In this document: piece after piece, positions 8,681 through 22,984 of the stretch
How positions within the stretch are numbered: position 1 is the stretch's first letter
Layout of the letters: each line of letters opens with the position of its first letter
Assembly: GCA_006218035.1 (NCBI GenBank)
Contig: VBWC01000007.1
Span: forward strand, 1 to 64,000
Source: Gammaproteobacteria bacterium
GTDB lineage: Bacteria; Pseudomonadota; Gammaproteobacteria; VBWC01
Length of the DNA: 64,000 bases
Direction: 5' to 3'
Translations under genes and position numbers: made by a program
The notes under the pieces: model-generated
Database searches by the model: none
Seen by the model: the letters and a program-made list of their open reading frames with translations, nothing else
What the model was told of the DNA's origin: nothing

Positions 8681-9769
8681 CTATATATGGTTAAGCGACC
8701 AGCTCGCGAGCGCCGCTATTGCCGCTGCCACCGGTAGTGTAACGACCCACCCGAACAGGATCATTTTTAGCGCGTCGGCATGATTCGGACGGGCTTTCTG
8801 TGTCCAGCGAATGCCCATCAGCGAGCCTGCGCTGACATGGGTGGTCGACACCGGCAGGCCGAGCGGCGACGCCAACAGCACCAGCGCCGACGTGCCGACA
8901 TTCGCCACCAGTCCGCTGCTGGCGTCCAGTGGGGTCACGCGGTGCGCCATGACATTCAATATCCGTAACCCGCCCCACAGACTACCGCCGGCCATGGTGA
9001 CAGCAACGGCAATGACAGGCCACGCACTGTTCAATGGAGTGGAGACGTCGCTGACGTTGGGGTATAGCGCCAGCGCCAGCACCAGAAACGCCGCGATTTT
9101 CGGCACATCGTTCAGTCCTCGCGCAAAGCTGGTAGCGCCGCTCGACAGCCAGTGCAACGTGCTCCAGATTCTTTCCGGGCGACTGAGCTGGCCGGGCGTT
9201 TTCCGTTGCGGCGCGCAGGCATAGGGATTTCTGCGCCACTCCGGCTCGTCGCAACACCCGGGTGTCCATGCCGGCACCCGTTTTGCCACATAACGGGTTA
9301 CCAGCAGTAGTGACGCGCACAAACCAATGGCGATTAACGGGCTCAGCAGCAACGGCAGCAAGGCTTTTTGTGTGACCGCACCGGCGTGCAGCGCTGATGG
9401 CCCGGCCGCGACCAGCGTCGCGCCGACGACACCGCCGAGCAGGGCGTGCGTCGTCGATACCGGCAACCCGAGGCGCGTCGCGGCAAACACCCACAGTGCA
9501 GCGCCTCCCAGCGTGGCGGCAAGGAAGATGACATCGACGTGGAAATCCGCGCTGAGGTAACCGCTGCTAAAGGTCTTCATCAGTGCCGTGCCCCACACGA
9601 TTGCCGTCAGACCGCCCAGTAGCGTCCACAGCGTTCCCCAGAGGATAGCGCGCCGCGCGCTGGCGGTGCCGTTACCCACCAGTGTCGCGACGCCTTTGGC
9701 GATATCGTTCGCACCGTTGGCCCATGCGAGCAACAACACCAGTACGAAAACCGCGATCATGCTCATCAT
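8681..9769 (-). CDS. Inorganic phosphate transporter, PiT family
   Basis: A 362-residue polytopic membrane protein. The two PiT signature repeats are clear: WANGANDIAKGVATLVG near the N-terminus and FARGLNDVPKIAAFL in the second half, each followed by a GLPVSTTHAL/VS helix. It would import phosphate by cation symport. In an arsenic island a low-affinity PiT may set the phosphate/arsenate uptake balance, which is inference. The central loop carries CC at 172-173 and another Cys, echoing vicinal Cys in neighbouring gene products. The start was placed at 9769, where GAGGAG lies 10 bases upstream; the frame is open further but without support. Confidence 0.92.
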   Translation of the reverse strand: MMSMIAVFVLVLLLAWANGANDIAKGVATLVGNGTASARRAILWGTLWTLLGGLTAIVWGTALMKTFSSGYLSADFHVDVIFLAATLGGAALWVFAATRLGLPVSTTHALLGGVVGATLVAAGPSALHAGAVTQKALLPLLLSPLIAIGLCASLLLVTRYVAKRVPAWTPGCCDEPEWRRNPYACAPQRKTPGQLSRPERIWSTLHWLSSGATSFARGLNDVPKIAAFLVLALALYPNVSDVSTPLNSAWPVIAVAVTMAGGSLWGGLRILNVMAHRVTPLDASSGLVANVGTSALVLLASPLGLPVSTTHVSAGSLMGIRWTQKARPNHADALKMILFGWVVTLPVAAAIAALASWSLNHI

Positions 9770-20002: not shown

Positions 20003-20845
20003 TTATGACCGGTGCGGTTTTGCATCCGGCACATCCATTGCCCGTCTGACCAGTCCGCAGGTTTGTGTTAAATCATTGCTGTGAATGCTGTAGCAGCGGC
20101 ATTGCTTCGCAATGGCGATGGCCGCGTCGATACCGCCCTGCGGGTGGGCGAGAAGATTCAATGTATTCGCATAGAGGCGCGCGCTGGCCTCGGCGGTGTT
20201 GAGGGCGAGGATCGTCGAGCGGTCCTGGTCCGGCGTATACCGGAGAAAAAATATTGCGAAAAGCGGAACGGCGTGCGGTACGGCAGCGGCCGGAAGCGCG
20301 TCGACCGGCACGTGCAGGGTGCCGGGGGTTCTGAGCGTTGATTCTGGCAGTGGGTACGGTGGTGGGGGATCGCTTTTTAGATTGAGCGCATGGGGATACG
20401 GCTCAATCTCCATGGTACTCAGATCCACCGGCGCCAGTTCGTCGCTGAGATAGCGAAACCCATGATGCAGCAGCGCCCATGTCGTTGTGGATTTCCCGCT
20501 GCCGGACGGCGCCACGATCATGCAGGCCTTGCCGTTGAATTCCAGCGCGGCACTGTGCAGGAAATACAGATCGCGCCGGATCTTCTGCAGCTCGATCGTC
20601 ATGTCCTTTTCCACAATGAACAGCAGGTCGGCTACATCGTCCGCAATCAGTGGCGGTTGATCGCGCCGGGTAACCGAAAAGGTTTCGCGCGTGCTGTCGG
20701 CCTGCACCGTGAATTCGAGATCGAACGTCTCAACGTTCGCCGCCAGGAACCCGAAATTCCTGCGCAACAGTTGTTCGGTCTGCGGATCGGTAAGAATCGA
20801 CACGTTGGTGTCGAACACGCGCAGCGATAGTAGTTTGGTTTTCAT
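20003..20845 (-). CDS. HprK-related kinase in a PqqD/peptide cassette
   Basis: A 280-residue protein with an HPr kinase-like core: LHSAALEFNGKACMIVAPSG, P-loop APSGSGKST at 112-120, and a downstream acidic SDELAPVD (134-141) where HprK has its Walker B-like residues. The N-terminal ~90 residues resemble the alpha/beta lead-in of HprK-related kinase A rather than canonical HprK. No HPr or PTS genes are near; the neighbours are a PqqD-like protein, a short peptide gene and a nucleotidyltransferase. HprK-like kinases can phosphorylate lasso peptides in other bacteria, so a peptide substrate is a possibility, but this is inference. I chose the ATG at 20845; the longer frame crosses the terminator. 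Confidence 0.8.
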   Translation of the reverse strand: MKTKLLSLRVFDTNVSILTDPQTEQLLRRNFGFLAANVETFDLEFTVQADSTRETFSVTRRDQPPLIADDVADLLFIVEKDMTIELQKIRRDLYFLHSAALEFNGKACMIVAPSGSGKSTTTWALLHHGFRYLSDELAPVDLSTMEIEPYPHALNLKSDPPPPYPLPESTLRTPGTLHVPVDALPAAAVPHAVPLFAIFFLRYTPDQDRSTILALNTAEASARLYANTLNLLAHPQGGIDAAIAIAKQCRCYSIHSNDLTQTCGLVRRAMDVPDAKPHRS

Positions 20846-20931
20846 GTCTCGGCACGGCCGATGCCGGCCGGTGTGCGTCTTGCGATCAGGCGGGAAGCCC
20901 GGCACATCATAGTCAACCATGCCGCCTGGCG

Positions 20932-20962
20932 AAAAAAAAGACCCAGGTTTTAGCCGGGTCTT
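20932..20962 (-). terminator. Rho-independent terminator between the peptide and the kinase
   Basis: On the minus strand a hairpin forms from AAGACCC (left edge, 20938-20944) and GGGTCTT (20956-20962), extended by two inner GC pairs around one mismatch, with a six-base loop. It is followed by eight T residues (20932-20939). It sits about 80 bases after the 54-residue peptide gene and about 90 before the HprK-like start, so it would limit read-through into the kinase. Confidence 0.8.
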
Positions 20963-21040
20963 CTTCGCTACTTGCTTGTCCCCGTCGCCCGGCTGGTTCT
21001 TGCTGACATCCTGCCCGGCCAACGGTTCGCGTCGAAATGA

Positions 21041-21205
21041 TCAATCGTCTTTCTTATTGTCCTTCAACTTTTTGGCCTTGAATTTTAGTGAGCCGGCCGA
21101 AGCAATCGACGGAATTGCCGACAGCGTAATGATTGCTGGCGGAACAAACGCCATCTTCTTGATAAATCCACGACGGGATTTATTAATACCTGTGTTGTCT
21201 ACCAT
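21041..21205 (-). CDS. Short twin-arginine-like peptide, possible precursor (54 aa)
   Basis: A 54-residue frame in the gap between the PqqD-like and HprK-like genes. It reads MVDNTGINKSRRGF, then a hydrophobic stretch (about 19-34), ASA at 35-37, and a basic tail GSLKFKAKKLKDNKKDD. SRRGF followed by a hydrophobic core and AxA is a plausible Tat (or Sec) signal, which would release a 17-residue cationic peptide. A strong GGAG lies 6 bases before the ATG and 2 bases from the PqqD-like stop, and a terminator follows. Its place between a PqqD/RRE-like protein and a kinase is typical of a modified-peptide precursor. I recognise no family; it could instead be a short exported anchor protein. Confidence 0.65.
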   Translation of the reverse strand: MVDNTGINKSRRGFIKKMAFVPPAIITLSAIPSIASAGSLKFKAKKLKDNKKDD

Positions 21206-21217
21206 ATACATCTCCAG

Positions 21218-21520
21218 TTATTGAGCCACTAACAGATCAAGTTCCTGCAGTTGGGCTATCAAACTGACTACCTCGTTTCTTGCAACTTCCGGCTCGACTT
21301 CAAACTCGTGGATCACAAATTCAACGATGTCGTCTACCGAGTACACTCCATCGCACTTACCCCAAACAAAACTTGCAGTCCGGTTCAGTTGATGCACCTG
21401 CATACCATCCGTGCCCACAAGAATTGTTTCATCATCGACAATCCGTGACGTTACGTTTTGCTTTTGATGAAAAAACCTGCTGTCCGGCACAAGATACACT
21501 CTACCCCGATGCGGTCGCAT
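21218..21520 (-). CDS. PqqD-like peptide chaperone (RRE-type)
   Basis: A 100-residue PqqD-family protein. The fold signature is ETILVGTDGMQVHQLNRTASFVW (about 31-53), followed by the helical half SVDDIVEFVIHEF and VSLIAQLQELDLL. PqqD-like domains bind leader peptides of ribosomally made, modified peptides. With the adjacent HprK-like kinase and nucleotidyltransferase it matches the kind of set named HPr-rel-A in protein family collections, whose product is not known. The ATG at 21520 gives a normal PqqD length; a TTG at 21565 would add 15 residues. Neither start has a clear ribosome-binding site. Confidence 0.82.
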   Translation of the reverse strand: MRPHRGRVYLVPDSRFFHQKQNVTSRIVDDETILVGTDGMQVHQLNRTASFVWGKCDGVYSVDDIVEFVIHEFEVEPEVARNEVVSLIAQLQELDLLVAQ

Positions 21521-21709
21521 ATTGCAATACGACCGTGGGCCATGCGGCGCGTTCGCCCGCTTCAATTGTGAAATTGTGTTAAGTGCTGGCAGTCAAAGCG
21601 CACAACGTACGCACGCGGCGCACAAAAACGCATAAAAATGTAAAAGTTTCCGACACAAAATCGAGCGCGGGGAATAGTGAAAAAAGCGGTGACGCTCGTG
21701 CCTCGCTGG

Positions 21710-22984
21710 CTAGTCAGGATCGCCAATCCAGCGTTTCAGCGCAGCTTCGTTTTTGATGCGTATCAGGTGCCGCCGCAGCCGTTTTCGTTTGCCCAGCCAG
21801 ATAAACGGGTAAACCAGGTAGTACCAGTAAATCTTGTCGGCACCCGGTGCAACGCCGAACCGTTGAGCGAGCCACGCTTTCGCTGGAAAGATGATCGAAA
21901 CCAGATTGGTCATTCTTTCGCGAACCGATTCGCCACCCATGGCGCCGAATCCCGCCCGTGTGAGTGGTGAAGCGGCATCGTCGCGGTTGAACAGGCATTC
22001 GCCGATCAGGTTTACCATGTTCTGATCCTCGGTGGAAGGTTCGAACATCGGTTGGGCATCAAGTGGAATTTCGCTGATGCCGCCAGGTACGGTTGTCATC
22101 GCAAGCGCCATAACGGCGCCGGTAAGGCTGTCCATACGGTAGGCTGCGGTGTCGTGCTTGAGTTGCGACCAGTCAAGATGGTTTTGCTCACCTCGCGCCA
22201 CGTTGGCGATATCGCATAGCTGAATGAGCCCTCCCGTGCTGACAAATCCGAGGCGGGACATCGCGAAGCGGCTTTTGAGAAAATGCTGACACAAATGAAA
22301 CAGCGTATCCGCCGGCCCGAGTGTGCGCGCCTCCTGATCGGCGACGACAAACGGGCGCGTTCTCGTCCACCACGCATTGATCAGCGTATCGTCGGCAATC
22401 TGCACGCGCGTCGCCAGCCGGTGATGCGAGATGTGCCAGTGCAGGTCGATAAGCACGTCCTGGCCGGGCACGCCGTAGGCCAGCTCATAGTGATGCTGTA
22501 ACGCCCAGTCCCGCTCGACCGCGCCGTCCAGCTCGAAGCCCATGTCAATCAGCGCCGACTCGGCCCTGGTCAGATCATCACGGCGGACGAGCAGGTCGAT
22601 ATCACCCATCGGCCGCAACGCCGTATCGCCATACGCCAGCTTCGCGAGCGCCATGCCCTTGAGCACGATACAGTCGACCTGTCTGGCGCGAAACTGTGTC
22701 AACACGCGGCCCAACAGCGCCTCGAGGACCATGTTGCGCATCAGGTTGTCGTGATAAAGCCGTTTCAGGCCGGCGAGAAAATCCGCGGGGACATGGCCGC
22801 CGCTATCGACCGACTTGAGGTTCCGGTACATCAACGGTGCGACGCCGTGCCAGGCCGCTGCATCGATAATTTTCTGCCAGTCCAGCGTCGGTGTAATCAG
22901 CGGCTGCAGGGTTGCGCCAAAGGCGGGTGACGGGTTAAGCGCGAGGCATTCCCGTATGAAACGATGTTCGTTGGACAGTTGCAT
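21710..22984 (-). CDS. Nucleotidyltransferase family protein (PF14907-like)
   Basis: A 424-residue protein of the uncharacterised nucleotidyltransferase family often found beside PqqD-like and HprK-like genes. The core reads VDCIVLKGMALAKLAYGD...LRPMGDIDLLVRRDDL, the minimal NTase pattern with two metal-binding Asp (GDIDLLV), preceded by a helical bundle. Later conserved parts are DLHWHIS and DTLFHLCQHFLKS. The basic C-terminus (GKRKRLRRHLIRIKN) follows an aromatic stretch YWYYLVYPFIWL that might touch the membrane. The substrate is unknown. I chose the ATG at 22984; a TTG seven codons upstream with AGGGAA beside it is an alternative. Confidence 0.8.
   Translation of the reverse strand: MQLSNEHRFIRECLALNPSPAFGATLQPLITPTLDWQKIIDAAAWHGVAPLMYRNLKSVDSGGHVPADFLAGLKRLYHDNLMRNMVLEALLGRVLTQFRARQVDCIVLKGMALAKLAYGDTALRPMGDIDLLVRRDDLTRAESALIDMGFELDGAVERDWALQHHYELAYGVPGQDVLIDLHWHISHHRLATRVQIADDTLINAWWTRTRPFVVADQEARTLGPADTLFHLCQHFLKSRFAMSRLGFVSTGGLIQLCDIANVARGEQNHLDWSQLKHDTAAYRMDSLTGAVMALAMTTVPGGISEIPLDAQPMFEPSTEDQNMVNLIGECLFNRDDAASPLTRAGFGAMGGESVRERMTNLVSIIFPAKAWLAQRFGVAPGADKIYWYYLVYPFIWLGKRKRLRRHLIRIKNEAALKRWIGDPD

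Follow-up and report, generated by a model that had tools for sequence, protein, structure and literature searches.

What a nucleotidyltransferase (NTase), a PqqD-like protein and an HprK-like kinase act on when they are encoded together is the question raised by a small cassette in the gammaproteobacterial contig VBWC01000007.1 (GenBank assembly GCA_006218035.1). We analysed a stretch of 64,000 nucleotides of this contig, here called the window; window peptide, PqqD and kinase refer to the cassette copy found there. An earlier note, made from the sequence by itself, had read four genes in leftward order, an NTase with GDIDLLV, a PqqD-like protein, an overlooked small open reading frame (ORF) and an HprK-like kinase, and had proposed that the small gene encodes the substrate of the others. 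We confirmed this order and assigned the first two genes to PF14907 and PF05402. The small ORF is a true gene, with a family of relatives and coding constraint, and its role as substrate is strongly supported by the conserved association of the genes, by purifying selection that acts on its leader, by a motif of the kind bound by RiPP recognition elements (RREs; RiPPs are ribosomally synthesised and post-translationally modified peptides) and by precedents with the same trio of enzymes. The cassette is probably a pathway for a linear, phosphorylated, RiPP-like peptide, similar to the pathway for linear polyphosphorylated peptides (LPP) described below, in which the leader doubles as a twin-arginine translocation (Tat) signal and which lacks a dedicated peptidase or ATP-binding cassette (ABC) exporter.

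Searching with the 56-residue frame alone, read from its first ATG, returned relatives in further genomes of the class. Those that match clearly start with (S/T)RRxFxK...YxAPxILTL...AxxGS and diverge afterwards, and many of their contigs carry the same kinase, PqqD and NTase. About 60 distinct forms of the peptide were recovered, nearly always next to a PqqD-type RRE, an HprK-like kinase and a PF14907 NTase. An independent, kinase-led search gave 49 named loci in Gammaproteobacteria, Burkholderiales (including the cultured Azohydromonas and Rhizobacter), Rokubacteria, Binatia, Thermoanaerobaculia, Vicinamibacteria and Planctomycetia; carriers of the peptide family include Acidobacteria besides Gammaproteobacteria, Burkholderiales, Rokubacteria and Planctomycetia, and the cultured species Azohydromonas lata and A. 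australica have the cassette. A hidden Markov model (HMM) was trained on the peptide-led matches only and then run on 40 further kinase-led loci. It placed a peptide at most 2.5 kb from the kinase in 30 of these (in 29 of the 34 with at least 700 bp upstream of the kinase) and nowhere else in the 40 loci, so chance does not account for the small ORF. Furthermore, among 369 genomes of the class, a close kinase and a strong peptide match occurred together in 9, the kinase only in 2, the peptide only in 4 and neither in 354 (Fisher p ~1e-13, uncorrected for phylogeny). The earlier note had staked the small gene on homologous frames beside PqqD/HprK pairs in related genomes and on a substitution pattern of the coding type; these loci supply the first, and codon comparison supplies the second. 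The leader dN/dS (ratio of non-synonymous to synonymous substitution) is ~0.03-0.3 in most pairs of close relatives, showing strong purifying selection on its codons. Constraint on the tails is far looser in most pairs, with dN near or above dS in several, and they are mostly hypervariable, the conserved tails of Thiogranum being an exception. One conserved-tail subfamily (L080 5612-5902, L102 5595-5900 and L050 9914-10207) reads GNNGIGQEKRG.xDGPPPGLAKK..DFND.G.FAP.GQSGAK.GGRP.

The peptide family is absent from NCBIfam, where single members give weak matches to generic Tat-signal models only. A search of the genome contigs with the window PqqD alone found no matches; alignment of the kinase succeeded. 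Clustering of the neighbourhoods did not find a recurrent fifth gene, only sporadic polysaccharide-export genes, and no plasmid records with this kinase family were found. Sugar-transferase or polysaccharide export genes adjoin some cassettes or peptides (L078, L088, L093, L095, L044), and in Bacilli the LPP and paeninodin clusters are reported to have such neighbours too.

The anatomy of the peptide was read from 58 parsed members. The twin arginine is constant, preceded by S/T in 51/58 and followed four residues on by K/R in 56/58. An aromatic Y/F, a P three residues later and I/V/L two residues further are present in all 58, the parsing pattern itself requiring the aromatic residue and the P; 56 members have Y at the aromatic position and 2 have F (the window). 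The leader is a Tat signal, (S/T)RRxFxK, superimposed on an RRE-binding motif of lasso type, [Y/F]xxPx[I/V/L]. A Gly-Ser pair follows in 50/58, with the Ser 19 residues from the Y/F in 45/58. Six members have 12 rather than 9 residues between RR and Tyr, and five of these still keep 19 from Tyr to Ser, so the Ser is placed relative to the YxxP segment and not relative to RR. Residues compatible with signal peptidase occupy the aligned site PS(F/I/L)A-xxGS (cut at the hyphen) in 45/58. Counted from GS, the tails run from 7 to 95 residues, the shortest such as GSNGQTE, and are rich in Gly, Lys, Pro and Asn. Predicted cleavage would leave SAGSLKFKAKKLKDNKKDD or GSLKFKAKKLKDNKKDD as the window product. 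The 17-residue basic peptide proposed in the earlier note corresponds to one of these options; a 19-residue product is equally probable, and both length and basicity vary across the family.

The window PqqD has as its nearest solved structures the lasso RREs TfuB1 and TbiB1, both solved with leader peptides, and AlphaFold2 (AF2) models match them at VIA Z 11.9-13.3, the window model at 11.9-12.4. The YxxPxL feature of lasso leaders takes the form FxxPxI in the window. Since the PqqD stop and the peptide start share one frame, a readthrough chain in which Gly replaces the stop could be folded as a single protein; the alignments held 34 or 32 sequences and overlapped, and strands were placed from the DSSP string and the VIA alignment ranges. 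In the window model, IITLS after FVPP turns strand (pLDDT ~76), and in the Azohydromonas lata replicate the ILTLA strand is part of a block averaging pLDDT 90, with neighbouring peptide blocks at 56-76. The VIA alignment to NisB with the NisA leader (4wd9) runs from the RRE across the docked strand in both models. At these two loci the motif is thus predicted, from tethered and uncontrolled models, to dock on the RRE as an added strand.

The kinase matches the Pfam HPr kinase family weakly (0.026), as it does the solved HprK 1jb1, but NCBIfam HprK_rel_A clearly, at 8e-22 (78 bits; cut-off 200 bits). It retains the His, the P-loop Lys and an S-D-E triplet, and the pattern H, GK[ST], [SA]D[DE] is found in 42 of 49 open kinase frames, the remainder being close variants or truncated frames. 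The catalytic set of the published lasso kinases is His-Lys-Asp-Asp (PMC9266682), so by alignment the last acidic residue would be Glu here. PadeK and PsmK phosphorylate the C-terminal Ser of their precursors (PMC9266682), BsfK phosphorylates Ser3 of BsfA with stimulation by the RRE (PMC10368454), and LppK adds one to four phosphates at S3 of its precursor, which the S3A substitution abolishes (PMC13381572). Spacing places the conserved Ser of the family in a similar position: from Tyr(-17) to Ser3 of BsfA is 19 residues, from Tyr(-16) to S3 of LppA 18, and in the peptide family here 19. By precedent the modified site would be the conserved GS Ser and not the tail. PsmN, an annotated nucleotidyltransferase, has been tied to hexose addition on phosphoserine (PMC9266682), and the PF14907 NTase, a single copy in the whole genome, adjoins most kinase-led loci.

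We consider it unlikely that the enzymes instead modify the tail or some other residue, for example by nucleotidylation or by glycosyl-phosphate on another Ser, Thr or Tyr, with conservation of GS reflecting the context of signal peptidase. Signal peptidase prefers small residues near its cut site, some tails are rich in Ser and Tyr, and most cassettes include the NTase, all of which would fit. However, the likely AxA site shifts relative to Tyr in L057, L068 and L069 while GS stays at +18/+19, short tails of the GSNGQTE kind give few alternative sites, and in both BsfA and LppA the site has been proven to be Ser3 (PMC10368454, PMC13381572).

The leader has the features of a Tat substrate: (S/T)RRxFxK, a hydrophobic stretch and a signal peptidase I site, with TatC encoded in the genome. 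The Tat motif and TatC, together with the lack of PF13471 (the B2-type leader peptidase) in the whole genome and of any recurring exporter or peptidase, point to Tat export and cleavage by an ordinary signal peptidase. The signal-like layout seen in the earlier note is that of a Tat signal, so an adjacent exporter gene, whose absence the note remarked on, is not required. Tat proofreading chaperones hold the signals of redox enzymes in a similar way, and by analogy the RRE may hold this signal until the peptide is modified. We regard it as an even call whether the RRE reads the Tat signal in this manner, with the hydrophobic core serving as the RRE-binding strand and export held back until the kinase has acted. 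Another reading takes the leader as a RiPP leader only, its RR fortuitous, with the mature peptide exported by an unlinked route or retained in the cell; this seems to us doubtful, and more so than modification of another residue. The leader does resemble those of lasso and LPP precursors, and conserved prolines are normally absent from a Tat hydrophobic core. Nevertheless, no distinct member lacks the RR, which usually has S/T ahead of it, F behind it and K/R four on; the leader motifs published for lasso and LPP precursors do not contain it; and RR with APxxMT is shared with the HPr-rel-A proteins considered below.

Two phosphopeptide systems invite comparison. LPP, a 2026 family comprising LppA, LppB, LppK and LppN and described as restricted to Bacillota (PMC13381572), likewise combines a discrete RRE, an HprK-like kinase, an NTP transferase and a short precursor with conserved leader, variable tail and YxxP motif, lacks a cyclase, and carries its modified Ser 18 residues after Tyr, against 19 for the predicted site here. 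In contrast, LPP owns an SpI leader peptidase (LppS) and an MsbA-like exporter; neither gene is among the window neighbours, and related loci show only sporadic ABC genes. The LPP leader, YxxPxVLxHQxIxFETxxS, also has no RR and has in common with ours only YxxPx[IVL] and the rough Ser spacing, whereas the leader here doubles as a Tat signal. The phosphorylated lasso peptides (Bsf, paeninodin and pseudomycoidin; PMC10368454, PMC9266682) share the RRE, HprK-like kinase and NTase, a leader motif resembling YxxPxL and, in BsfA, a Ser3 at the equal spacing of 19. No macrolactam cyclase was found among the neighbouring genes read, a genome-wide cyclase search not having been run. With no cyclase nearby and no B2 family in the genome, we rejected a lasso reading, in agreement with the earlier note, which had held this not to be a standard lasso locus. 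The cassette is a member of neither LPP nor the lasso class by their definitions and works like both pathways; it appears to be a variant of the RRE/HprK/NTase phosphopeptide kind. Literature on Tat with PqqD or RiPPs, on HPr-rel-A and on TIGR04352 did not describe it, within open-access sources, so that a description elsewhere is possible.

The HPr-rel-A system (NCBIfam TIGR04352, TIGR04353) also unites an HprK-related kinase, a PqqD-like protein and an NTase in one operon, and several of its loci have a Tat-leader protein with a segment like APxxMT(L/V)xSRPA. It differs in that the window kinase reaches 78 bits against the 200-bit cut-off, the window PqqD has no TIGR04353 match, and the candidate substrate there is ~200-240 residues long, against 54 here; no TIGR04352 match above cut-off occurs in the genome. 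True HPr-rel-A loci, with both models above cut-off, encode upstream a protein of this larger size with RR...APVIMTLASRPA and then C(T/S)xSxxxSGNLS, seen in seven genomes. The examples tested matched neither NCBIfam nor Pfam families, and the protein is probably the substrate of the HPr-rel-A system. Given this analogous Tat-leader protein, HPr-rel-A looks like a sister system. The Tat-leader proteins at loci of the HPr-rel-A type (L172, L173, L175, L176, L123, L128, L131) often have a CTPGYW-like segment. Natural fusions were also observed, PqqD-HprK at L055 8537-9745 and L174 1562-2821 and HprK-PqqD at L056 10292-11479, and all three adjoin a Tat-signal peptide with RR...PPAVM/APVLM. SynChlorMet bears a fainter likeness, through weak ScmC and ScmD matches; both lie below cut-off, and no radical SAM gene was seen among the adjoining ORFs.

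The features of the window cassette are collected in the table. The PqqD start is uncertain (ATG 21520, a TTG at 21565 upstream, or an internal GTG); its TAA stop at 21220-21218 is followed in frame by CTG GAG ATG. The peptide has a second in-frame ATG at 21211, and the 54-codon start at ATG 21205, singled out in the earlier note for its GGAG, is preferred because TGGAG (21216-21212) lies 6 nt before it. The 195-nt gap between peptide and kinase contains a terminator-like hairpin. Hairpins of -8 kcal/mol or below occupy this position in 27 of 31 relatives, against ~8 expected from crude shuffles; a consensus terminator scan did not pick up the peptide-kinase hairpin. Ordinary genes flank the cassette, encoding a pilT-type ATPase, a DHODB-like reductase and a dihydroorotase-like amidohydrolase (DHOase). 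A genome of the same genus (L167, G001:C35; junction near 9701-9706) shows a clean single deletion of window 20443-22965; this 2.5-kb deletion joins the NTase start to the C-terminal half of the kinase between flanks ~95% identical, so the cassette is dispensable.

Table. Features of the peptide cassette, in window coordinates
Feature	Position	Strand	Evidence
NTP_transf_5 nucleotidyltransferase with GDIDLLV; candidate second modifying enzyme	21710..22984	-	PF14907 3e-55
PqqD-family RRE	21218..21520	-	PF05402 1e-15
54-residue precursor peptide, MVDNTGINKSRRGFIKKMAFVPPAIITLSAIPSIASAGSLKFKAKKLKDNKKDD	21041..21205	-	ORF; family of relatives; leader dN/dS
Tat motif SRRGFIK	21158..21178	-	RR in all distinct members examined; TatC encoded in the genome
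Putative RRE-binding segment FVPPAIITL (family YxAPxILTL)	21122..21148	-	Family motif; modelled as an extra strand by AF2 at two loci
Conserved Gly-Ser; predicted phosphorylation site Ser39	21089..21094	-	Family GS and spacing to Y/F
Terminator-like hairpin and T run, GAAGACCCGGCTAAAACCTGGGTCTTT then TTTTT	20932..20963	-	-13.2 kcal/mol
HprK-like kinase; H in FLHSAAL, P-loop SGSGKST, SDE	20003..20845	-	NCBIfam HprK_rel_A; kinase alignment

We propose that the precursor would be made in excess over the kinase through partial termination at the observed hairpin. The RRE is predicted to capture the leader segment [Y/F]xxPx[IVL]xTL as an extra beta strand, and the kinase would then phosphorylate the GS Ser, 19 residues past the Tyr/Phe, as spacing and homologues suggest. 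The PF14907 enzyme may elaborate the phosphoserine, as proposed for PsmN. The bound segment is also the hydrophobic core of the Tat signal, so the peptide, once off the RRE, would become available to Tat, and signal peptidase might cut just before SAGS or GS; the RRE would thus be both modification adaptor and Tat-signal chaperone.

Several observations weigh against this proposal. The loci L061, L062, L063, L071 and L074 lack an adjacent peptide, and three peptides occur in a genome (G048, 88% complete) in which no kinase of the family was detected. The window peptide has Phe in place of Tyr, GS is absent or replaced in 8/58 members, and the AF2 docking comes from a tethered chain and a small alignment, with no scrambled-peptide control. 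LppN showed no detectable activity in the LPP study and its deletion no detectable effect (PMC13381572), so the NTase step is the least certain. Peptide copies in G048 (L008 8482-9010, L009 5610-5870) adjoin V-type ATPase genes or lie at the ends of contigs. Orphan peptides away from the enzymes, the Gly/Lys/Pro-rich hypervariable tails and the few loci adjoining polysaccharide export genes would suit an ordinary small Tat-secreted structural or matrix protein, the enzymes serving another substrate such as exopolysaccharide, but strong co-occurrence across unrelated neighbourhoods, the RRE-type motif in the leader and PqqD-HprK fusions adjoining the peptide make this very improbable.

The widespread, unexplained PqqD/HprK/NTase genes are thereby given a concrete, testable substrate and modification site, and since A. 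lata and A. australica are cultured, tests are practical. The idea of phosphorylated linear RiPPs is extended beyond Bacillota, with one segment proposed as both RRE dock and Tat signal, and a probable substrate is indicated for the HPr-rel-A system. If the RRE does read the Tat signal, the cassette would represent a Tat-exported RiPP class spread across several phyla, and HPr-rel-A would be a larger-substrate version of the same machine.

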